Both the position numbers and the translations under genes were made by a program. Of a stretch of 48,612 nt of DNA, positions 32,441 through 43,319 are shown one piece after another (position 1 is the first letter of the stretch; each line of letters starts with the position of its first letter). Below the pieces are notes generated by a model. The model had not been told where the DNA came from. It saw only the letters and a list, made by a program, of their open reading frames with translations, and did not search any database. Source of the DNA: Oscillospiraceae bacterium (lineage in GTDB: Bacteria > Bacillota > Clostridia > Oscillospirales > Oscillospiraceae); contig CACYLY010000015.1 of NCBI GenBank assembly GCA_902775355.1, positions 1 to 48,612 of the forward strand, written 5' to 3'.

Positions 32441-33100
32441 TCAGGGCGCGAAAAGCAGAGAGCAGGCGATCAGCAGCTGGCCGATGTAATACAGGCCGAT
32501 GTTGGTGAAGCGCAGGCTCTTTTTGGTCTCCGGCCCGAAGGTGTTCAGGATCAGCACGAAGTCGCTGACCAGGAAGAACAGGGATCCGGCGGCGAAGAGG
32601 CCGGTAAAAGCCGAGGGCGCGGCGATGAGATTGGCGAAGGCGACGCAGTTGAGCAGCACGATGGCCCCGATGTAGACCACGCCGAAGATCTTGAAGGCCT
32701 TTTTCGCCGTGATCTGCTTGAAGATCCAGATCATCAGCAGCGCCGTCAGGACCAGGCCCAGGATCAGACAGAGGAGCTTGTTTTCGCACTGGGGCAGGAT
32801 CGCCGCCAGATACAGCACGTGCCCGCCGAGAAAGACCAGGATGCCCACCAGGAAGATGAGCTGGCCCTTCTTGGGGAAGACCCAGCGCAGGTTCAGCAGC
32901 ACGTCCGCCGCGCAGCCCAGGGCCAGGCCCAGCACCGCCAGCCTCGCCGGCGGCGTCCCCCGGCTGCAGAGCAGGCCCAGCAGCACGAAGCACAGGGAGG
33001 CCAGTCCCTTCAGCAGCACCGCCGGGACGTATTTCTCCCTGCTCTCCTGCCACAGGAAGAGAGCGGCCAGGACCAGGCACAGGGGGATCAGCAGAAACAT
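32441..33100 (-). CDS. YhhN family membrane protein (lysoplasmalogenase-like)
   Basis: A 219-residue protein with about 7-8 hydrophobic helices. The conserved polar positions of the YhhN/TMEM86 family are visible: an Asp in GCAADVLLNLRWVFP, a Gly-His in FLGGHVLYLAAI and an Asp in FLVSDFVLILN. Characterised relatives cleave the vinyl-ether bond of lysoplasmalogens. It begins 12 bases after the ferredoxin-reductase-like gene and has GGAGGG before its ATG, so it is the last gene of the redox operon. That linkage makes a lipid or isoprenoid substrate for the operon attractive, but this is inference. Confidence 0.8.
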   Translation of the reverse strand: MFLLIPLCLVLAALFLWQESREKYVPAVLLKGLASLCFVLLGLLCSRGTPPARLAVLGLALGCAADVLLNLRWVFPKKGQLIFLVGILVFLGGHVLYLAAILPQCENKLLCLILGLVLTALLMIWIFKQITAKKAFKIFGVVYIGAIVLLNCVAFANLIAAPSAFTGLFAAGSLFFLVSDFVLILNTFGPETKKSLRFTNIGLYYIGQLLIACSLLFAP

Positions 33101-33112
33101 GGCGCTCCCTCC

Positions 33113-34336
33113 TCAGTCCGCCGTGGGGAAGATCTCCAGCTCGATGTCGCTGAGCGGGAAGCTGACGCAGGGGTGGATCCAGTTGAACTTGATGTCGCCC
33201 AGGCGGCGGCCGTCGGCCTCGGCGGGGATATAGACCTGCCCCTTCACCAGGCGGGAGTGGCACCAGCCGCACTCGCCGCTGCGGCAGTGGGCGGGGGCCT
33301 TGATCCCGGCCTTCTCCAGGGCCCAGAGCAGGCTCTCGTCCGCCTTGCAGGGGATCTGGGTCTTCTCGCCCCGGATCAGCACGGTCAGGCTGTACTGCTT
33401 CCCGATCTGGTCCTTGGGGTAGTCCGGATTGTTGACCACGCCCATGTAGTCGCCGGACATCTCCATGCGGTAGAGCCGCTTGGGCAGACCCAGGCGCTTG
33501 CACTGGGCTTCGCCGAAGACATACATGGCCTTGGGGCCGCACATGAACACGGAATAGGGCCCCACGGGGGCGTATTTCTGGATCAGCTCCGCGGTGATAA
33601 AGCCGTGCTCATAGCGGGGCTGCTCCTCGTCGGAGAGGACGTGGACCACCCGGACCCGGCCGCTGCTCCGGGCGGCAACTTCCTCGATCTCCTCCTTCAG
33701 CAGGATGCCGTCGGCCTTCCGGGAACCGTATAGGATGGTCAGGTCAAAGTCCTCGACCCCGTCCACGATGGCCTGGGCCATGGAGTAGAAGGGCGTGATG
33801 CCGGAGCCGCCGGCGATGGCGATCACATGCTTCGCGTCCCGCAGATCCTGGTAGTAGAAGTCGCCCAGGGGGCCGGAGATGTCCACCGCGTCCCCCTCCT
33901 GCCAGTGCTCTAAGATCCAGGCGGAGGCGTAGGCGGGCTGGGTGCGCTTGATGGTGAGGGTGTAGCTGCCCTCCGAACCAAGAGCCTCCCGGGGACCGGA
34001 GCGGATGGTGTAGGGCTTGTGCACAATGGCCCCGTCGATGTTCAGGGCCACCGAGACGTACTGGCTGGCCCGGAAATAGGCCAGGGCCTCCGTGCCCCTG
34101 TCCCTGTCGGGGATCAGGGTGAAGCTCTTGGCGTCGCCGTGGTCGACGACCTTCTGGATGCGGCAGTGCTGCACCGCCGGGTGCAGGCGCCTGCCCAGGA
34201 TATTCGCATTGTAGACGGACTTCGGCAGAATGGCCGGGGCCGCCGCGATGGCCGCGTTCCGGGCCTTGACCTCGCCCAGGAAGGGGAAGGGCGTCAGGCC
34301 CTTGAGGACCTTCTTGTCATAGTTGTATTTCGCCAT
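33113..34336 (-). CDS. Ferredoxin-NAD(P) reductase-like flavoprotein with C-terminal 2Fe-2S domain, copy B
   Basis: A 407-residue electron-transfer protein. The FAD domain (about 95-190) has RASQYVSVAL and the FAD-stacking KPYTIRSG. The NAD(P) domain (about 195-305) has IAIAGGSGITPFYSMAQAI and the end motif VFMCGPKAMY. Residues 325-405 form a plant-type ferredoxin with CRSGECGWCHSRLVKG, and a fourth Cys in IHPCVSF. It starts one base after the stop of the desaturase-like gene and is a paralogue of the protein at 39000-40208. The pair presumably passes electrons to that flavoprotein. Confidence 0.9.
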   Translation of the reverse strand: MAKYNYDKKVLKGLTPFPFLGEVKARNAAIAAAPAILPKSVYNANILGRRLHPAVQHCRIQKVVDHGDAKSFTLIPDRDRGTEALAYFRASQYVSVALNIDGAIVHKPYTIRSGPREALGSEGSYTLTIKRTQPAYASAWILEHWQEGDAVDISGPLGDFYYQDLRDAKHVIAIAGGSGITPFYSMAQAIVDGVEDFDLTILYGSRKADGILLKEEIEEVAARSSGRVRVVHVLSDEEQPRYEHGFITAELIQKYAPVGPYSVFMCGPKAMYVFGEAQCKRLGLPKRLYRMEMSGDYMGVVNNPDYPKDQIGKQYSLTVLIRGEKTQIPCKADESLLWALEKAGIKAPAHCRSGECGWCHSRLVKGQVYIPAEADGRRLGDIKFNWIHPCVSFPLSDIELEIFPTAD

Positions 34337-34337
34337 C

Positions 34338-35888
34338 TCACTTGCCCTCCTTCTTCATGTCCAGCAGCATGTAGCGCGCCTGCTCCGCGCCGGACAGATA
34401 GGCCTGGGAATAGCCGTCCATCTGGGTGCCGTGGCCGCCGCAGAAGCGGAGGCCGTGGATGGTGTAGTCCTCCTTGTGGCCCGTCTGGACCCGGGGGAAC
34501 ATGCCGTCCCAGCCGGCGGGCTCGTAGCCGTACACGTCGCCCCGGGGGGTGCCCAGGTAGCGGGCCCAGGTGGCGGGGGAGGCCACCACGATCTCCTCGA
34601 TATGGCCCTGGAGCCTGCAGCCGGTGACCGCCTCGTAGCGCTCCACGCATTCCCGGGCAATGCGGTCCTTCACCTGGAAATACTCGTCCTCCGTCACCTC
34701 GGCGAAGGGATCGCCGGTGTAGAACTTGGAGAACTGGATGAAGGCCCGGCCCTTGCCGGCGGCGTCGGGGATGGCATTGGTGAGCACCGTGCAGGAGAAG
34801 TCCTTGTGGGTCTCGATCTTGTCGCAGCTGAGGTACTGCTGGCGGTTGTCCGGATTCGAGCGCAGGAAGGTGTCGTAGCCCTTGAGCCCCAGCTCCTCGG
34901 CGCTGGCGTCCAGCCCCAGGCAGACGATGAAGGCCGCCTGGGCGATCTTCTGGGCGTTCATCATGCGCAGGTTCCGCTCCGGGATCTCCCGGTGGTCCAT
35001 CATCCGGTCAAAGACCACATGGGGCATCAGGTTGGAGATCACCCACTCGCAGGGGATGTAGGTCCCGTCGTCCAGCTCCACGCCCCGGACCTTGTTGTCC
35101 TTCACGTCGATTTTTTTCACTTCCGTGTTGTACCAGAGCTCGCCGCCCAGCTCCCGGATCCGGTGGTCGAAGGCCATGGAGATCTCGTGGCTGCGGCCCC
35201 TGGCCACCCAGGGCAGCTGGGTGAGGTAGACATAGGTCATGAAGGCGTAGACCGCGAAGCTCATGTTGGTGGAGTCCGCCGAGACGTAGGTCCAGTAGGA
35301 CTCATAGATCCGCTTGGCCTTCTCCGGCACGTCGATGCGGTCCAGCATCTCCTCGGTGGACACGGGGACCGTGCGCATCAGGTCGTAGTACTTGAGCAGC
35401 ATCTCCACCTTGGCGGGGGGAGAGGGCTCGTTGTCGTGGGCAGCCAGCCAGTCCACCCCGTCGCCGATCATGCGGGCCAGCTCCATCACCGTGGTCATGG
35501 ATTCCCGGCTGCCGGGGACCTGGCGCTCCATCTCGTCGATGAAGGCCTCCACGCCGGCGGGCATGTACACCCGGAAGCCGTTCGGGTCCGTGGCGATGGA
35601 GGCGAAGGACTCGTTGACGGGGCACCAGTCCACGTCCAGCTTGTACTCGTCCTCCAGGAGCTTGCGCACCGCGCCCCGGGGACGGCCCTCCTTGCCGTCG
35701 CCCATCTGGCACAGCTCATGCAGCGTGGCCTCGAACTCATAGGCGCCCCGCCGGAAGCTGGTGGCGCAGCCGCCGGGGAGATTGTGCTTTTCCAGCACCA
35801 GGACCTTCTTCCCCGCCTTTGCCAGGGTTGCCGCCGCCGACAAGCCGCCGTTGCCGGCGCCGACGACAATCACGTCGAATTTCTGCAT
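34338..35888 (-). CDS. Phytoene desaturase / RetSat-like FAD oxidoreductase, copy B
   Basis: A 516-residue flavoprotein of the carotenoid-desaturase and retinol-saturase superfamily. It opens with the dinucleotide-binding motif FDVIVVGAGNGGLSAAATLA and the second GG motif LEKHNLPGGCATSF; the C-terminal FAD motif is HGLRFCGGHGTQMDGYSQAY. Anaerobic members use reduced flavin to saturate or isomerise conjugated C=C bonds in isoprenoid-like molecules. Start 35888 is chosen because AAAGGAGG is 7 bases away. It is paralogous to the protein at 40208-41755, and its partner reductase follows one base downstream. No carotenoid synthase is nearby, so a carotenoid role is doubtful. Confidence 0.88.
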   Translation of the reverse strand: MQKFDVIVVGAGNGGLSAAATLAKAGKKVLVLEKHNLPGGCATSFRRGAYEFEATLHELCQMGDGKEGRPRGAVRKLLEDEYKLDVDWCPVNESFASIATDPNGFRVYMPAGVEAFIDEMERQVPGSRESMTTVMELARMIGDGVDWLAAHDNEPSPPAKVEMLLKYYDLMRTVPVSTEEMLDRIDVPEKAKRIYESYWTYVSADSTNMSFAVYAFMTYVYLTQLPWVARGRSHEISMAFDHRIRELGGELWYNTEVKKIDVKDNKVRGVELDDGTYIPCEWVISNLMPHVVFDRMMDHREIPERNLRMMNAQKIAQAAFIVCLGLDASAEELGLKGYDTFLRSNPDNRQQYLSCDKIETHKDFSCTVLTNAIPDAAGKGRAFIQFSKFYTGDPFAEVTEDEYFQVKDRIARECVERYEAVTGCRLQGHIEEIVVASPATWARYLGTPRGDVYGYEPAGWDGMFPRVQTGHKEDYTIHGLRFCGGHGTQMDGYSQAYLSGAEQARYMLLDMKKEGK

Positions 35889-35911
35889 TCTCATTCCTCC
35901 TTTGAGATAAA

Positions 35912-36265
35912 TCACTCCGGTTCTTCCGGCACCAGGATCTCCCGGATGGTGAAATCCTTGCCGCTGAGGACGGTTTTGTTGAAGCTGCCGCAGTTGGGGC
36001 AATAGCCCTTGTGCTCGATCACGTTGAAGATCTCGTCGCAGTCCTCGCACTCGGCCAGGCCCGGGACCATGTGGATGGTGAGGCCGGCGTTTTCCAGGAT
36101 GCTGCCCTTGACCACCACGGGATAGAGCTCCCGCAGGTAGTCCGGGATCACCAGGGACAGCTCCCCGCAGTCCACCACCACCTCGCAGATCCGGCTCACG
36201 CCGTGCTCGGCGGCGAAGTCCGTCACCGTGCGCAGCAGCTGGCGGACGATGCCGATCTCATGCAT
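35912..36265 (-). CDS. HypA/HybF family metallochaperone
   Basis: A 117-residue protein starting MHEIGIVRQLLRTV, where His2 is the Ni ligand of HypA. The zinc site is CEDC and CPNC (about residues 73-76 and 88-91), followed by SGKDFTIREILVPE, a normal HypA ending. HypA normally inserts nickel into NiFe hydrogenases, yet no hydrogenase or other hyp gene is in the window. The gene overlaps the end of the Fe-S flavoprotein gene by 8 bases and lies in the middle of the redox operon. It may help load metal into an operon product, or its role has shifted. Confidence 0.88.
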   Translation of the reverse strand: MHEIGIVRQLLRTVTDFAAEHGVSRICEVVVDCGELSLVIPDYLRELYPVVVKGSILENAGLTIHMVPGLAECEDCDEIFNVIEHKGYCPNCGSFNKTVLSGKDFTIREILVPEEPE

Positions 36266-38939
36266 CCTTGCCGCCGACCTTCCCGAAGCGCTTCTTCACC
36301 ATGTTCACGCCGATCTTCGGCACGTTCTTCGCCACCCGGCCCAGGGTGTGGAAGTACTCCTTGTTGTCCGCGTCGTGGATCTTCTCCAGGTGGATGGCGT
36401 CGAACCTGCACTTGGTGGTGCAGACGCCGCAGCCCACGCACATGAACTCGTCCACCACCGCCACGCCGCAGCCCAGGCAGCGGGCGCACTCGGCCTGCAC
36501 CTGCTCCTCGGTGAAGCTGCCCCGCAGGTCGTTGAAGCTGGTCTTCGCCGCGGTCCCCTCGGGGGCGGCGGGCTTCTGGCGGGGCGCGCTGTCAAAGCCG
36601 CCCAGGGGGATCTGCGCGGTCCGCTTGTCAAAGGGCCTGTAGTCCCGGTGATCCCGGCCCAGGGTCAGGGTCTGGCCCGGGTGGACGTAGCGGTGGATGG
36701 ACACCGCCGCCTCCTTGCCCGCGGCCACCGCGTCGATGACGAACTGGGGGCCGGTCACCGCGTCGCCGCCGGCGAAGACGTCCGGCACCGCGGTCTGACA
36801 GGTCTCGGGATCGGCGTCCACGGTGCCTCTGGCGTTCAGGCTGAGCCCGATGCCGCCCAGGTCCACCTTCTGCCCCGCGGCGGCCAGCACCGCCGTCACG
36901 GGCACGGTCTCGAATTCGCCGCTGCCCTTCACGCTGCGGCGGCCCCTGGCGTCCGCTTCGCCCGGGATCATCTTCTCCAGCTTCAGAGTTTCGGCCTTAC
37001 CCTCGCCGCCGATCTCCGCGGGGGCTTCCAGGAAGCGGAAGGCCACGCCCTCCTCCCGGGCCTCGGCCAGCTCGTCCCGGTCGGCGGGCATGTCCTCTTC
37101 GCCGCGGCGGTAATACACCGTCACCTTCGCGCCGAGACGGATGGCGGCCCGGGCCACGTCCATGGCCACGTTGCCGCCGCCGATGACGGCGACTTCTTCG
37201 CCGAGCTCCGGCTTCTCGCCCAGGTTCACCCGGCGCAGGAAGTCCACGCCGGAGCTGACGCCGGGAAGGTCCTCCCCGGGAACGTTCAGTTTTGCGCCTT
37301 TGGAGGCGCCTACGGCCAGATAGAAGGCCTTGTAGCCCTCCTGCCGCAGCGCGTCCAGCGTGAGGTCCTTCCCGATCTCCACGCCGGTGCGGAAGACCAC
37401 GCCCAGCTCCCGGAGCACGTCGATCTCGGCACGGATCACGTCCTTCTCCAGCCGGAAGGAGGGGATGCCCAGGGTGAGCATGCCGCCCAGGGCCTGCTCC
37501 TTCTCAAACACGGTGACCGGGTAGCCCTTCAGGGCCAGGTAATAGGCGCAGCTCAGCCCCGCGGGGCCGGCGCCGATGACGGCGATCTTCTCCGGATAGG
37601 GCTTGCCGATCTGGTTGACCATTTTGGGCACGAAGCGGGTCTCGGCGGAGAGCTCCCGCTCGGCGATGTATTTCTTGATCTCGTCGATGGCCACGGGGGC
37701 GTCGATCTCGCCCCGGGTGCAGGCCTCCTCGCACTTCTTGTTGCAGATCCTGCCGCAGACCGCCGGGAAGGGCAGCTCCTTCTTGATGAGCTCCAGGGCC
37801 TCCGCGTAGCGGCCCTGGGAGGCCAGCTTGATGTAGCCCTGCACCGGCACGTGGGCGGGGCAGGCGGCCTTGCAGGGGGCGGTGCCCTCGGGCGTCACGT
37901 CGGTCCGGTCCACCCGGTAGTCCGGGTCATAGCGCTTCGAGGTCCAGAGGGTGTTCCGGGCGGTCTCCGCGGGCCGGGCCTGGGCGGTGGGCCGCTGGCA
38001 GAGCTTCTGGCCCAGCTTCACGGCGTTGAGCTGGCAGTTTTCCACGCACTGGCCGCAGGCCACGCACTTGTCCCTGTCCACCTTGGCGATGTAGTTGGTG
38101 CGAATGGCGTCCGGCGTGCGGAAATAGGCGGCGATGCGCAGGGCGAAGCAGGAGCAGCCGCAGCAGTTGCAGATGGCGGTGGTGTCCTCGTAGCCCGGGG
38201 TCACGTTCAGCTCGTGGACCAGGCCGTTGTCCTCCGCCCGCTGCAGGATCTCATAGGCCTCCTCCTTGCTGATGAGCCGGTGGGCGCCGGTCTCGGAGTA
38301 GTTCACGGCGTTGTCGTTGAGGTACATGCACATGTCCTCTTCCAGGTGGCCGCAGCCCTCTCCCATGAGCCGGCGGGCCCGGCGGCAGGAGCAGGGACCC
38401 ACCGAGACGGCCCAGGCCTCCTCGATGAGCTTGTGCACCTCGTCATAGCTGGCCTTGCGGCTGTTGTTCTCGATGGCGCTCTGCACGGGGATGACCCGCA
38501 TCAGGTTCATGCCCACGTCCATAAAGGGCGCCAGCATGGACACCCGCACCCGGGTGTACTCCTCAAAACACTGACCCAGGACGGGATATTTGTCGCACTG
38601 CTCCCGGTTGGACAGGATCCCCTCCATGATGCCGGGCACCCAGATGGGATAGTACCAGCAGAGCTTGCCGTCCACCTTCCGGCTACGGATCACGCCGGCG
38701 GCCTTCAGCTTGTCCAGCTGGGTCTGGGTGAAGGCCAGGTCCTTTTTCGCCCGGCGGGCGATCTCCTCCGCTGTGCGGTTGGCTTCCAGGCGCATGTGCA
38801 TCATGATCTGGCACATGTCGTCGTCCACGATGGGCTCCAGGATCCGGTATTCCGGGTCCTTGTAGGTGATGCCGGTGTAGGTCAGACTTTCCAGACTGAT
38901 CTTGGTCGCCAGCTTCAGGATATTCGGTCTGTGGGACAT
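36258..38939 (-). CDS. GltD/NfnB-like NAD(P) oxidoreductase with extra N- and C-terminal Fe-S modules
   Basis: An 893-residue flavoprotein. Residues 1-110 have a winged-helix-like segment (TAEEIARRAKKDLAFTQTQL). Residues about 160-320 are Cys-rich: VGPCSCRRARRLMGEGCGHL, then ICNCCGCSCFAL and a 4Fe-4S motif CVACGQCVENC. Residues about 350-790 are a GltD-type module: PCKAACPAHVPVQGYIKLA, CGRICNKKCEEAC, the FAD motif IAVIGAGPAGLSCAYYLA and the NAD(P) motif VAVIGGGNVAMDVARAA. The end carries another ferredoxin-like part (CARCLGCG, then CVGCGVCTTKC). This class passes electrons between NAD(P)H and ferredoxin or other partners. ATG 38939 has AAGGAG eight bases upstream; GTG 38945 is less likely. 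Confidence 0.88.
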   Translation of the reverse strand: MSHRPNILKLATKISLESLTYTGITYKDPEYRILEPIVDDDMCQIMMHMRLEANRTAEEIARRAKKDLAFTQTQLDKLKAAGVIRSRKVDGKLCWYYPIWVPGIMEGILSNREQCDKYPVLGQCFEEYTRVRVSMLAPFMDVGMNLMRVIPVQSAIENNSRKASYDEVHKLIEEAWAVSVGPCSCRRARRLMGEGCGHLEEDMCMYLNDNAVNYSETGAHRLISKEEAYEILQRAEDNGLVHELNVTPGYEDTTAICNCCGCSCFALRIAAYFRTPDAIRTNYIAKVDRDKCVACGQCVENCQLNAVKLGQKLCQRPTAQARPAETARNTLWTSKRYDPDYRVDRTDVTPEGTAPCKAACPAHVPVQGYIKLASQGRYAEALELIKKELPFPAVCGRICNKKCEEACTRGEIDAPVAIDEIKKYIAERELSAETRFVPKMVNQIGKPYPEKIAVIGAGPAGLSCAYYLALKGYPVTVFEKEQALGGMLTLGIPSFRLEKDVIRAEIDVLRELGVVFRTGVEIGKDLTLDALRQEGYKAFYLAVGASKGAKLNVPGEDLPGVSSGVDFLRRVNLGEKPELGEEVAVIGGGNVAMDVARAAIRLGAKVTVYYRRGEEDMPADRDELAEAREEGVAFRFLEAPAEIGGEGKAETLKLEKMIPGEADARGRRSVKGSGEFETVPVTAVLAAAGQKVDLGGIGLSLNARGTVDADPETCQTAVPDVFAGGDAVTGPQFVIDAVAAGKEAAVSIHRYVHPGQTLTLGRDHRDYRPFDKRTAQIPLGGFDSAPRQKPAAPEGTAAKTSFNDLRGSFTEEQVQAECARCLGCGVAVVDEFMCVGCGVCTTKCRFDAIHLEKIHDADNKEYFHTLGRVAKNVPKIGVNMVKKRFGKVGGKDA

Positions 38940-38999
38940 TTTCACCTCTCCTTTTCGGCCGTCGGGCGGGGGACCGGGCGGTCCCCCGCCGCTGCCAAA

Positions 39000-40208
39000 T
39001 CAATAAAACTCTCCCGGGATCTCCAGGACCAGATCAGACGTGGGGAAGCTGCAGCAGGGGTGGATATAGCCGTAGTGCACGTCGGCCCAGCGGCGCATCT
39101 CGTTTTCCTTCGGGATGAACACCGTGCCCTCCAGCAGCCGGGAGCGGCACCAGCCGCACTCGCCCGCCCGGCAGCGGGAGGGGGCCTTGATGCCGGCGCG
39201 CTCGATGGCCACCAGCACCGGCTCGTCCGCAGAGGCGGGAACGGTCCATTCCTCGGGCCCCTGCTTCACCCGAATGCTGAAGCTCTTGCCCTCGGCCTCA
39301 GCAGGGTAGCCCTCGCAGGCCCAGGGGCTCTTGGTCACGTCGATGAGCTTCCGGCGGAAGCGCCGCGGGGGCAGGCCCAGCTCCTCGATCTCCGGCTGCA
39401 GGAAGCGGTACATGGCCTCCGGTCCGCAGAGGAACACGGAGTAGTCCTCGTCCGCCGGCGCGTACTTCCGAATCAGCTCTGCCGTGAGAAAGCCGTGCTC
39501 GAAGCAGTCCCGCTCCTCGTCGGAGAGGACGTAGATCACCTTGAACTTCGGGCAGCTGCGGGCGATCTCGTCCAGCTCGCCCCGGAAGAGCACGTCCTCC
39601 TCCCGGCGGGAGCCGTAGAGCAGGGTCAGGCTGAAGTCCTCGATCCCGTCGGCGATGGCCCGGGCCATGGAGAGGAAGGGGGTGATGCCGGAGCCGCCGG
39701 CCAGGCCCACCACGTGCCCGGCGTCCCGCAGATCCTCATAGTAGAAAAATCCCTGGGGCGCGGAGGCGATGAGCTTGTCGCCGGGCTTCAGGTCCCGCAG
39801 CAGCCGGTCCGCTGCGAAGCCACCGGGATTGGCGCGAATGGTGATGGCGTAGCTGCCGTTCAGCGCCTCCTTGGGGGAGGAGCAGAGGGAATAGGAGCGG
39901 GTGACCAGGCTCCCGTCCAGGGGCAGCTTCAGAGAGAGATACTGGCCGGCGCGGAAGTAGGGCAGGGGTCCGCCGTCCGGACGCTTGAGCACGAAGGTTT
40001 TGGCGCCGCCGCGGGCGATGATGTTGTCCACCGTCAGCTCCAGGGCGTCCGGATGCAGGGCCTTCGCGTTTTCGTTCACCGGGAACGTGCCGGAGATCTC
40101 CTTGGCGGGGGCCTTCTGGATGGCCTTTTCCCGGACTTTCGCCATGTTCTTGAATTTGAGCATGTCCAGCTTGCCGATCAGGCCCACCTTGACGTTCAGA
40201 TCAGACAT
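39000..40208 (-). CDS. Ferredoxin-NAD(P) reductase-like flavoprotein with C-terminal 2Fe-2S domain, copy A
   Basis: A 402-residue paralogue of the protein at 33113-34336. The FAD domain has FRAGQYLSLKLPL and the canonical stacking motif TRSYSLCSSP. The NAD(P) domain has VGLAGGSGITPFLSMARAI and FLCGPEAMYRF. The ferredoxin end has CRAGECGWCRSRLLEG with the last Cys in IHPCCSF. Domain order FAD-NAD-2Fe2S matches phenol-hydroxylase-type reductases in reverse of some family members. The ATG shares a base with the TAA of the upstream desaturase-like gene, so the two are co-translated. Confidence 0.9.
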   Translation of the reverse strand: MSDLNVKVGLIGKLDMLKFKNMAKVREKAIQKAPAKEISGTFPVNENAKALHPDALELTVDNIIARGGAKTFVLKRPDGGPLPYFRAGQYLSLKLPLDGSLVTRSYSLCSSPKEALNGSYAITIRANPGGFAADRLLRDLKPGDKLIASAPQGFFYYEDLRDAGHVVGLAGGSGITPFLSMARAIADGIEDFSLTLLYGSRREEDVLFRGELDEIARSCPKFKVIYVLSDEERDCFEHGFLTAELIRKYAPADEDYSVFLCGPEAMYRFLQPEIEELGLPPRRFRRKLIDVTKSPWACEGYPAEAEGKSFSIRVKQGPEEWTVPASADEPVLVAIERAGIKAPSRCRAGECGWCRSRLLEGTVFIPKENEMRRWADVHYGYIHPCCSFPTSDLVLEIPGEFY

Positions 40209-41755
40209 TACTGCTCCCCTCCTTCCCACGCTTTCAGATCCTTGAGGGCGTTGGCGGCCATCAGCTGGCCGCAGATGATGGTGGCGGAATAGCCGTCGCC
40301 CCGGGGACCGGCGGCGCCGATGGGCCGCAGACCCTTGATGGGATAGTCGGCGCCCAGCATCATCATGCGGGCCATCATGCCGTCCCAATCCCGGGTCTCA
40401 TAGCCGTAGACCGAGCCCTCGGGCACGCCCAGGAAGCGGGCGAAGGTCCAGGGGGAGGCGACCTCCATCTCCTCGATGTGGCCGCAGAGATCGATGCCGG
40501 TCTTTTCCTTCAGGATGCGCAGCCACTTCTTCGCGCCCTCGGTCTTGAATTTGAAGTAGTCCTCCTGCTGAAGCCGGCCCCATTCCTCCGGTGCGCCGAA
40601 GGTGGTGAAGGAGCACACGCAGGTGCCCTCGGGGGAGAAGCCGGGATTGGCGATGTTGTAGCACAGGAAGATGCAGTATTCGTTGGTCTCCATGCCGCCC
40701 AGAATGTTTTTGTACTCCTTCGCGGAGTCGGCGGTGCCGGAGAGGAAGATGCTGTAGTCCGTGATCCCCAGCTCCTCAGGCGCGGCGTCCAGGCAGAAGT
40801 AGGCGGTGTACATCCGCCCGCCCATGATGCGGCCCCGGGCGGCGGAGAGCTTCTTCTCCCGCTCGGGGATCAGCTCCTTGGGCATCATGCTGCCGTAGAT
40901 GATGTCCGGGTTGATGTTGGCCAGGCAGTAGCCGCAGTCGATGTCGCCCAGGTTGGTGCGCACACCGCAGAGCTTGTCCCCCTCAAAGAGGAACTCCTCC
41001 GCCCGGCAGTTGAACCAGATCTCGCCGCCCAGCTCCCGGAAGCGCTCCACCATGGCGGTGGACAGCTCATGGGAGGTGTGGGCCGGGATATAGGCGCTGC
41101 GCTGCACGTACTTGTGCACCATGGCCGCGTAGTGGATAAAGGCCAGATGCTCCATGTCCACGCCCAGATAGCTCCAGTAGGTGGACAGGATGTCCTGCGC
41201 CTTCTGGGGCAGCTTCAGCGCGTCGAAAACCTTCTTGGTGCTGTAGGCGCCGGTGCGCAGCATGTTGGGGTACTTGGCCTGCAGCACCTTGGAATCCGCG
41301 TGGCCCTTGGAGGCCGTGATGTAGGCGATGCCGTCCAGCACCTCCTGGAAGAGGTCGAAGAGCGCCGTCGTCTTTTCCCGGGAGCCGGGGACGTACTCCT
41401 CCATCTTGTCGATAAAGTTCTGGATCCCGGAGGGCATGGTCACGTCCATGGGGCTGCCGTCGGAATAGCGGGAGACGACGCGGAAGCAGTCCCTGCACTC
41501 GTACCAGTCCAGCTTGACGCCGTAGGCGTCCAGGATCCTGCGCACGTCGCCGGGATTGTCGGCCGGGCCGAAATCGCAGAGCTCGTGCAGGGAGGGCTCG
41601 ATTTCAAAGCGGCCGCGGACAAAGCTGGTGGCGGCGCCGCCGGGCACGTTGTGCTTTTCGATCAGCAGCGTTTTCCGTCCGGCCAGCTGACACTGCAGGG
41701 CCGCAGACAGTCCGGCGTTGCCGGCGCCTACGACCACTACGTCATATGTGGGCAT
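40208..41755 (-). CDS. Phytoene desaturase / RetSat-like FAD oxidoreductase, copy A
   Basis: A 515-residue flavoprotein, first gene of the redox operon. It begins TYDVVVVGAGNAGLSAALQC with the second motif IEKHNVPGGAATSF, and ends with LRPIGAAGPRGDGYSATIIC in place of the usual C-terminal FAD motif. It aligns with copy B over its full length (for example LHELCDFG versus LHELCQMG, and HIEEMEVASPWTFARFLGVP versus HIEEIVVASPATWARYLGTP). The two copies have diverged enough to act on different intermediates. AAGGAGG lies 8 bases before the ATG, and a consensus promoter is about 60 bases upstream. Confidence 0.88.
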   Translation of the reverse strand: MPTYDVVVVGAGNAGLSAALQCQLAGRKTLLIEKHNVPGGAATSFVRGRFEIEPSLHELCDFGPADNPGDVRRILDAYGVKLDWYECRDCFRVVSRYSDGSPMDVTMPSGIQNFIDKMEEYVPGSREKTTALFDLFQEVLDGIAYITASKGHADSKVLQAKYPNMLRTGAYSTKKVFDALKLPQKAQDILSTYWSYLGVDMEHLAFIHYAAMVHKYVQRSAYIPAHTSHELSTAMVERFRELGGEIWFNCRAEEFLFEGDKLCGVRTNLGDIDCGYCLANINPDIIYGSMMPKELIPEREKKLSAARGRIMGGRMYTAYFCLDAAPEELGITDYSIFLSGTADSAKEYKNILGGMETNEYCIFLCYNIANPGFSPEGTCVCSFTTFGAPEEWGRLQQEDYFKFKTEGAKKWLRILKEKTGIDLCGHIEEMEVASPWTFARFLGVPEGSVYGYETRDWDGMMARMMMLGADYPIKGLRPIGAAGPRGDGYSATIICGQLMAANALKDLKAWEGGEQ

Positions 41756-41972: not shown

Positions 41973-43319
41973 ATGAACGAGAAGAAAACCGGAGCCGGAC
42001 TTCGCTTCTGGATCCTGGTCTGGGGCCTGGGCCTCATCGGCCAGCTGGTCTGGAACATCGAAAACCAGTGGTTCAACACCTTTGTCTATGCCAAGATCGC
42101 CAAGGACCCCACCATCATTTCCTGGATGGTGGCCGTCTCCGCCTTTGCCACCACGGTTTCCACCTTTCTCTTTGGGACCCTGTCGGACCGGCGGGGCCGC
42201 CGCAAGCCCTTCGTGGCCCTGGGCTACATCCTCTGGGGCATTTTCACCATCCTCTTCGGCACCACGGAGTTCATCACCGCCGGCAGGAGCGCGGACACGG
42301 CCAAGCTCCTGGTGCTGGCCGCCACGGCGGTGGTCCTGGCGGACGCGCTGATGTCCTTCTTCGGCTCCATGGGCAACGACGCGGGCTTCAACGCCTGGCT
42401 GAACGACAACATGAACGACCGCAACCGCAGCGCCATCGGCGCGGCCCTGGCAACCCAGCCCATCCTGGGCACCATCGTGGGCGTGGTGGTGGGCGGCATG
42501 CTCATCGGCAAGAGCGACAACTATATGCTCCTGTTCGTGGTGGAGGGCGGTCTGGCCATCGTCTTCGGTCTGCTGGCCTTCTTCTTCATGAAGGACGTTC
42601 CCGGGCTGAAGCCCAACCGGCAGGGCAGCTTTTCCCGGCAGCTCCTGAGCGGCTTCGACTTCAAGGCCCTGGGCAAGCGGAAGGAGCTGCTGTGGGTCTT
42701 CCTGGTGGTCTGCGTCTACTTTATCGGCTTCAACGTCTACTATCCCCACGTGGGCAACTATATGATCTACTACCTGGGCTTCTCGCCGGACAGCATCGGC
42801 CTCATTCAGGGCATCGCCCTGCTCCTGGGCATGCTCTCGGTGATCCCCGCCTCCATGCTGCTGAACCGGAACAAGTTCGTTCCCGCGGCGGCGCTGGCCG
42901 TGCTGCTGAGCCTGGTGGGCGTGGGGATGCTGGGCCTCGTCGGCCGGCCGGAGAAGGTGGACCCGAGCACCATCCTGAACTGGAACCTGCTGATCGCCAT
43001 GTTCTTCTTCGGCTGCGGCTACATCATGTTCATGCAGGTGAGCTCCGTGTGGATGAAGCAGCTCTTCCCCGAGGAGGCCAAGGGCCAGTTCGAGGGCTTC
43101 CGCATCGTCTTTTTCGTGCTGATCCCCTGGGTGGTCTCCCCCTTCATCGCCAACCCCATCATCAAGCGCAACGGCCAGATCCTGGACCAGGACGGGCTGC
43201 CGGCCTATCTGCCCACCCACGTGCTGTTTCTGATCTCCACGGCGCTGATCCTGCTGACCCTGCTGCCCCTCTTCTTCGCCGCCCGGCACCGCAGGGCCCG
43301 TCTGGAGGCGGAGAGCTGA
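41973..43319 (+). CDS. MFS transporter
   Basis: A 448-residue transporter with about 12 helices. The loop 2-3 signature appears as GTLSDRRGRRKPFVALGYIL. The N-terminus (FWILVWGLGLIGQLVWNIEN, then QWFNTFVYAKI) resembles sugar/cation or SLC45-like MFS members more than drug exporters. ATG 41973 follows GGAAGGGAG. It diverges from the redox operon, so it may import the substrate or export the product of that pathway; the sequence alone does not say which. A strong terminator follows. Confidence 0.88.
   Translation: MNEKKTGAGLRFWILVWGLGLIGQLVWNIENQWFNTFVYAKIAKDPTIISWMVAVSAFATTVSTFLFGTLSDRRGRRKPFVALGYILWGIFTILFGTTEFITAGRSADTAKLLVLAATAVVLADALMSFFGSMGNDAGFNAWLNDNMNDRNRSAIGAALATQPILGTIVGVVVGGMLIGKSDNYMLLFVVEGGLAIVFGLLAFFFMKDVPGLKPNRQGSFSRQLLSGFDFKALGKRKELLWVFLVVCVYFIGFNVYYPHVGNYMIYYLGFSPDSIGLIQGIALLLGMLSVIPASMLLNRNKFVPAAALAVLLSLVGVGMLGLVGRPEKVDPSTILNWNLLIAMFFFGCGYIMFMQVSSVWMKQLFPEEAKGQFEGFRIVFFVLIPWVVSPFIANPIIKRNGQILDQDGLPAYLPTHVLFLISTALILLTLLPLFFAARHRRARLEAES

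Follow-up and report, generated by a model that had tools for sequence, protein, structure and literature searches.

The stretch of DNA analysed here, referred to as the window, comprises 48,612 nucleotides of contig CACYLY010000015.1 (contig C15), which belongs to a 2.86-Mb draft metagenome-assembled genome (MAG) of an Oscillospiraceae bacterium (GCA_902775355.1) that is 87.5% complete. Positions 32441..41755 harbor seven open reading frames (ORFs), all on the minus strand, among which two pairs of a flavoprotein and a reductase (CRT1-FNR1 and CRT2-FNR2) are the subject of this analysis. As a related pair, CRT3-FNR3, lies directly behind the gene of a PAI-type isomerase of polyunsaturated fatty acids (PUFA) in many gut and rumen relatives, CRT-FNR pairs appear to be good candidates for the saturation of dietary fats in the gut. 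In transcription order, the seven genes are:

40208..41755, minus strand: CRT1, 515 aa, predicted CrtI-fold FAD flavoprotein and proposed C=C reductase
39000..40211, minus strand: FNR1, about 402-403 aa, FAD/NAD(P)/[2Fe-2S] reductase immediately behind CRT1 and its proposed electron donor
36258..38945, minus strand: hub, 895 aa (893 from a later start), Fe-S flavoprotein
35912..36265, minus strand: HypA-family protein, 117 aa, hub-linked paralogue
34338..35888, minus strand: CRT2, 516 aa, CRT1 homologue, 37% identical
33113..34336, minus strand: FNR2, 407 aa, FAD/NAD(P)/[2Fe-2S] reductase immediately behind CRT2 and its proposed donor
32441..33100, minus strand: YhhN-family protein, 219 aa, 12 bases behind FNR2

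The tight same-strand packing reported in the first-pass annotation was borne out, ends included, with gaps between -8 and +54 bases (CRT1-FNR1 -4, FNR1-hub +54, hub-HypA -8, HypA-CRT2 +23, CRT2-FNR2 +1 and FNR2-YhhN +12). The gene content it had listed, consisting of two flavoproteins, two FAD/NAD/2Fe2S reductases, an Fe-S flavoprotein, HypA and YhhN, was likewise recovered as domains in family searches. A promoter scan placed a sigma-70-like site before CRT1 at 41845-41817, where the chance expectation for the region is 1.1 sites. A plus-strand ORF of 1354 aa (36228-40292) was taken for an antisense ORF, the gene caller having picked the minus strand there.

In Pfam, CRT1 and CRT2 matched general Rossmann/FAD families only, and both missed the 238.1-bit cut-off of the NCBIfam phytoene desaturase TIGR02734 (44.7 and 81.5 bits, respectively); in PHROGs the match of CRT1 was confined to the FAD motif. 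The structure model of CRT1 (pLDDT 90.1, pTM 0.89, from an alignment of 65 sequences) found the gamma-carotenoid desaturase 4rep as its top fold match (TM 0.77/0.80, 17% identity), and the predicted fold is of the CrtI type. RetSat, to which the flavoproteins had also been likened, saturates the 13-14 bond of retinol; neither a model nor a structure of it turned up in the family and structure searches of the CRTs. FNR1 and FNR2 scored above the Pfam cut-offs for FAD_binding_6, NAD_binding_1 and Fer2, and below the 420.8-bit cut-off of the PaaE equivalog TIGR02160 (163.2 bits for FNR1 and 120.2 for FNR2); FNR1 carries the cysteine motif C347-x4-C352-x2-C355. Judged by these domains, CRT1-FNR1 and CRT2-FNR2 represent the same type of cassette, a CrtI-fold flavoprotein followed by a FAD/NAD/[2Fe-2S] reductase.

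The cassette was counted in 60 stretches picked non-randomly from the list of CRT1 homologues (one of them only 100 bases long), in 18 more, 13 of which came from other families, and in the window; three of the rows used contain a stop. Of the 86 full-length CRTs, 84 are followed on the same strand by an FNR at a distance of no more than 300 bases, and the two CRTs lacking one are the last genes of CRT-FNR-CRT arrays. These arrays, at L148:7308-11611 and L149:3777-8080, consist of two CRTs that seem to share a single FNR. Over the 84 pairs, CRT and FNR distances correlated at r = 0.93, the maximum among 500 permutations that ignore species relatedness being 0.11; the correlation dropped to r = 0.47 when only pairs with CRTs of less than 50% identity were considered. 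An FNR is present beside CRTs in every clade of the CRT tree. In this tree, built by a quick method that leaves some long branches outside the CRT1 and CRT2 sets unsure, the 22 rows of CRT1 and its orthologues group apart from the 12 rows of CRT2 and its orthologues, both sets having a support of 100, and within the fetched stretches CRT1 orthologues were found without CRT2 and CRT2 orthologues without CRT1. The separate sets suggest that the window pairs are two old cassettes put into one operon. A recent duplication was rejected because the clades are old: the two pairs, initially described as paralogous, are homologous and not fresh paralogues.

CRT1 homologues at E <= 1e-30 are present in 85 of 199 related genomes. 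On a wider scale the distribution of the cassette is patchy, as CRT-family proteins (E <= 1e-40 to CRT3) were found in 16 of the 391 genomes of a class sample, the genome of the window included; apart from this genome, G240 and G441 alone carry a protein about 60% identical to CRT3. The family of G381 was dropped as a proxy for Lachnospiraceae, since that search spanned 11 genomes only. In a plasmid collection, CRT3 and hub queries gave no match reaching 60% identity; a remote CRT-like flavoprotein (27%) was seen on plasmid NZ_CP113927.1:23371-24882 of Ligilactobacillus acidipiscis, the source of which is given as Frieseomelitta varia.

One of two neighbourhoods informative about the substrate is that of CRT3, a common CRT of the genus, to which at least 51 rows were assigned by their 32-36% identity to CRT1. 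In relatives its gene is preceded by a PAI homologue (c6) that matches PDB entry 2b9w, labelled 'putative aminooxidase', over residues 2-139 and 166-462 (E 5.6e-131), which amounts to full-length homology at the sequence level. Relatives contain 55 nearly full-length PAI genes, of which at least 46 have a same-strand CRT3 within 1 kb behind. Five stretches were inspected of the nine remaining PAI genes, those of G091, G078, G026 and G025 being left out. Four of these five show the start of a CRT3: L247-L249, which lie at contig ends, and L250, where the match is limited to residues 1-146 though the contig continues, and where PAI contains a stop.

When GTDB species genomes were scanned with an alignment of CRT3 proteins, 322 relatives emerged, the best 80 of which were analysed. 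According to their titles these belong to Mogibacterium, Lachnospiraceae, Oscillospiraceae, Ruminococcaceae, Christensenella, unplaced Clostridia and some others, and none of the titles names Butyrivibrio. Many mention goat, sheep, cattle, roe deer or RUG, which we take to mean 'rumen uncultured genome'; by a raw title count with no background rate, 58 of the 80 carry ruminant labels (27 a host with a gut site, 31 RUG). In this set an FNR lies within 400 bases behind CRT3 in all 79 loci with room for it, PAI stands immediately before CRT3 in 67 of 75, and 33 of 62 have a hub no more than 1 kb behind FNR3. Upstream and divergent, an acyl-AMP ligase, an acyl carrier protein (ACP) and an acyl-ACP thioesterase occur all three together in 49 of 55 loci.

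PAI-less copies of CRT3-FNR3 were seen in L171, L172, L174 and L175 (8.7-9.8 kb) and in L173, from Mogibacterium and other MAGs; a divergent protein precedes them (DUF5692 in L171, the sole one scanned), and an AMP-binding-type protein is present where the locus reaches far enough. At L227:19316-21525, in the Ruminococcaceae MAG RUG11826, a second CRT-FNR pair (39% to CRT1, its FNR cut by the end of the locus) lies within 10 kb of PAI-CRT3-FNR3. The genome of the window has its own PAI, split over contigs C87:3357-3560 and C2:1-2646 (L026); on C2 its CRT3 is in three reading-frame pieces, and the open frame of FNR3 measures 359 aa, compared to 391-396 aa elsewhere. These broken genes reflect either assembly error or decay.

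A second neighbourhood concerns CRT1 itself. In 12 loci, orthologues of CRT1-FNR1 (CRT1 75-86% identical) lie inside a beta-oxidation cluster, accompanied in all 12 by a GntR/FCD regulator, an acyl-CoA ligase, an enoyl-CoA hydratase and a divergent 3-hydroxyacyl-CoA dehydrogenase/crotonase, in 11 by a thiolase and in 10 by a nitronate-monooxygenase-like protein, some contigs ending earlier.

The window arrangement also recurs. Four other species (L060-L063) keep the order CRT1-FNR1-hub-HypA-CRT2-FNR2, their proteins being 76-91% identical to those of the window; in L060 the contig ends within FNR2 and the hub is split into two frame pieces. With this recurrence the arrangement is more than chance. 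Parts of it occur in five more loci: the first four genes in L059, the last four in L109, L111 and L112, and in L080 a remoter CRT1-like pair (53%) and aconitase X genes, then a hub and HypA 87% and 85% identical to those of the window. Conserved clustering, as proposed initially, was thus found again. An aconitase X large subunit gene was seen close behind a CRT1-like/FNR pair at L080:11740-13416, L084:11533-12762 and in L117; in L080 the small (swivel) subunit accompanies it before hub-HypA.

Between the two cassettes, the hub and HypA form, on domain and neighbourhood evidence, the third module of the operon. The hub contains the Pfam domains Fer4, Fer4_20 and Pyr_redox_2, and both its sequence and its model (pLDDT 82.3, pTM 0.86, 33 sequences) match the large subunits of NfnABC and StnABC. 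Residues 355-836 align in sequence with 9bov, 8oh5 and 9n5u at 33-40% identity, pointing to an NADPH/FAD core homologous to that of NfnABC; for the N-terminal ~350 residues there was no solved relative among the hits listed. The hub remained below the NCBIfam cut-offs of GltA and PRK12771 (318.9 vs 471.75 and 452.7 vs 516, respectively), and matched phrog_6397 over the flavin core (1.1e-36).

The family of HypA was confirmed by Pfam PF01155 (101.2 bits, cut-off 28.9), TIGR00100 of NCBIfam being barely missed (87.4 vs 88.1), and the protein keeps the MHE start and two CxxC pairs (C73-C76 and C89-C92). Neither the operon nor the ten further window genes that were scanned include a hydrogenase or urease gene. 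Three of the four HypA proteins above the cut-off in this genome adjoin hub-like genes (C12, C15, C54), and the fourth, on C17, adjoins a complex-I/nickel-hydrogenase-type large subunit, HypD and an AIR-synthase-type protein. The operon's HypA is thus one of three hub-linked paralogues and not the copy next to hydrogenase genes, and a nickel enzyme served by it was discarded as a candidate, as the operon holds no such gene. Throughout the loci compared, HypA lies directly behind 21 of the 53 full-length hubs with room for it. Three further hub-like proteins of the same genome (L022, L023 and L024, on C54 and C12), two of them with HypA, have no CRT-FNR in the fetched stretches.

From gene neighbourhood and modelled fold we infer the function of the cassettes and, with it, the substrate class, the direction of the reaction, the route of the electrons and the roles of the hub and HypA. 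Our tentative reading, to which we give slightly less than an even chance, is that the two CRT-FNR pairs of the operon are C=C reductases that use NAD(P)H to act on unsaturated fatty-acyl chains (biohydrogenation), with the hub feeding electrons. NAD(P)H would reduce the FAD of the FNR, whose [2Fe-2S] cluster would pass electrons to the FAD of the partner CRT; the hydrophobic site of the CRT would hold the chain while two electrons and two protons are added across the C=C bond, so that a CrtI-type fold would run in the saturating direction. The hub, as an NADPH/Fe-S flavoprotein with an Nfn-like core, may supply or balance electrons for both pairs, with HypA as its small metal-binding partner. 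In CRT3 loci the route would lead from linoleate through a conjugated diene (PAI) to a monoene (CRT3-FNR3), which fits the gene order, and the window pairs are related to this reductase, which appears to complete PUFA biohydrogenation behind a PAI-type isomerase. CRT1 and CRT2 may act on different bonds or substrates, because they belong to different clades; further bonds or chains would be the simplest guess, because CRT1 is tied to acyl degradation in sister species. Of what the first-pass annotation had proposed, the anaerobic reduction of C=C bonds in a hydrophobic, unsaturated compound, carried out by CrtI/RetSat-like flavoproteins with FNRs and an Nfn/GltD-like hub, survives as a deduction, and two flavoproteins may act on successive bonds. 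As regards the type of compound, its hydrophobic nature still holds, and the neighbourhoods in relatives favour fatty-acyl chains, the best-supported substrate class on gene content, over sterols, bile pigments and isoprenoids.

Several observations weigh against this reading, which is weakest as to what the two pairs of the window itself act on. The window operon holds no isomerase, acyl ligase or ACP gene, and CRT1 and CRT2 are merely 32-35% identical to CRT3, so their substrates may differ. Linkage to a linoleate isomerase gene, taken as a functional sign of a conjugated linoleic acid (CLA) reductase, was found by gene order for CRT3 only and not for CRT1 or CRT2 of the window. For 43 of the 86 CRTs, none of the tested neighbours was found within 9 kb, some contigs ending earlier. 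Eight of the 75 CRT3 loci (L171-L175, L177, L178 and L193) have no PAI directly upstream, and in 29 of 62 no hub follows FNR3 within 1 kb. At L246:3605-8212 (G114, another genus of the same family) a PAI-hub-HypA operon stands with no CRT or FNR alongside, showing that a hub can function in the absence of the cassette. A search of the window's genome, which is 87.5% complete, for the beta-oxidation gene c3 found no copy, with no positive control there for the query. Finally, the family hits of the CRTs are desaturases and isomerases, which leaves the saturating direction to be deduced, and according to a report cited in PMC9965710, gut Clostridia possess phytoene dehydrogenase and may be producers of beta-carotene.

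This last report also favours a different reading, in which the cassettes act on other unsaturated hydrophobic compounds supplied by the host or its food (retinoids, carotenoids, terpenoid acids, sterol side chains), only CRT3 being tied to fatty acids and CRT1 and CRT2 having moved on to other substrates. The best match of the CrtI-type fold is a gamma-carotenoid desaturase, the CRT clades diverge to 30-40% identity with many members in other neighbourhoods, and the ligase of the beta-oxidation cluster matches fatty, coumarate and steroid ligases, so another carboxylic acid could be the substrate. Both informative neighbourhoods, on the other hand, concern acyl chains, and no terpene, carotenoid or steroid gene occurs among the identified neighbours, many neighbours lacking identification; we consider this reading rather unlikely. 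It is less probable still that the CRTs are redox-neutral or oxidative, i.e., FAD isomerases or desaturases of acyl chains whose FNR merely keeps the flavin reduced. CrtI relatives do include desaturases and isomerases, and the neighbouring PAI is itself a FAD isomerase; however, PAI already supplies the isomerase in CRT3 loci, and the NAD(P)H-type [2Fe-2S] reductase found with CRTs in every clade and in all 79 loci among the best 80 fits a net reduction better.

By analogy with the bifurcating Nfn/Stn enzymes, which its core resembles most, the hub might split the electrons of NADPH, one stream passing via FNR to the CRT and the C=C bond, an energetically favourable acceptor, and the other reducing ferredoxin, a variant of the proposed biohydrogenation that we hold to be improbable. 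In Butyrivibrio the rumenate reductase is membrane-associated and NADH oxidation and rumenate reduction stand at 1:1, according to PMC4478896, which argues against bifurcation in that organism. If bifurcation were true, dietary unsaturated fat would be an energy-yielding electron sink for gut and rumen anaerobes, with a CRT-FNR cassette family tuned to different chains and bonds.

The genes flanking the six-gene unit showed little conservation, so that the single unit of seven described at first appears modular instead of a fixed set: its six-gene core recurs and YhhN is not conserved. YhhN, which passes its Pfam cut-off, was rejected as part of the unit, as among the loci searched it lies near a CRT only in the window and in L075 (42%, Pfam YhhN, behind FNR1); it is absent from the fetched stretches of L061-L063 and from L143-L160 and L166-L245, and L060 stops within FNR2. 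Members of the YhhN family are lysoplasmalogenases, and their position behind FNR2 in the window and FNR1 in L075 would suit CRTs acting with YhhN on vinyl-ether or alkenyl chains in plasmalogen or ether-lipid metabolism, which this distribution makes very improbable. The two outer neighbours were also rejected as parts of the unit, being unmatched in the related loci searched:

92 bases beyond YhhN: DJ-1/PfpI gene adjoining the seven-gene run
41973-43319: MFS transporter gene, divergent from the operon, unmatched beside CRTs

Microbial biohydrogenation determines which dietary fats arrive in milk, meat and host. A PUFA isomerase homologue followed by a flavoprotein-reductase pair yields, for many lineages of the rumen and gut, concrete and testable candidate genes for the missing saturation step; in the window the cassette has been multiplied and recombined with an Nfn-like hub. 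If the biohydrogenation reading is true, some genes of gut Clostridia annotated as phytoene dehydrogenase may act on fat; such genes, perhaps the same ones, have been linked by others to carotenoid production in the gut (PMC9965710). Phytoene dehydrogenase genes were also enriched in the controls of an atherosclerosis study, as cited in PMC12870936.

Compared to known systems, the CRTs have their fold, FAD motif and size in common with the CrtI/CrtD desaturases and CrtISO (4rep, 4dgk), to which CRT1 is 17% and 13% identical in structural alignment; they differ in scoring below the NCBIfam cut-offs, in having an FNR partner and in their acyl-metabolism neighbourhoods. PAI of P. acnes (2b9w), described in PMC13365329 and PMC2885616, is a flavoprotein like CRT3, and its homologue adjoins CRT3; the PAI family is noted in PMC2885616 to include phytoene dehydrogenase-type enzymes. 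Unlike the proposed CRT reductase, PAI is an isomerase, its gene is absent from the window operon, and its homologue aligns with CRT3 and CRT1 over the FAD motif only (39% over 49 and 33% over 40 residues, respectively). NfnABC, StnABC and GltD share their core with hub residues 355-836, to which the hub adds an N-terminal third and, often, a HypA neighbour. L. plantarum likewise saturates linoleic acid, by CLA-HY/DH/DC/ER; according to PMC13365329, that gut pathway differs in starting with hydration, followed by a dehydrogenase, an acetoacetate-decarboxylase-type enzyme and an enone reductase. A rumen metagenome study (PMC10019597) placed PAI genes in seven MAGs, namely two Lachnospiraceae, one Oscillospiraceae and four unclassified, and the word 'reductase' is absent from its main text. 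In the accessible parts of the open-licence papers found, none tied a CrtI-like flavoprotein and an FNR to biohydrogenation. The CLA (rumenate) reductase of Butyrivibrio fibrisolvens, whose sequence was reportedly published by Fukuda in 2007, catalyses the reaction that is proposed for CRT-FNR. The Butyrivibrio enzyme has been purified and sequenced, yet in a 2015 genome study (PMC4478896) it was untraceable in KEGG, COG and Pfam. What is new beside all of these is the isomerase-CRT-FNR-hub operon found in relatives; it renders the biohydrogenation reductase testable.

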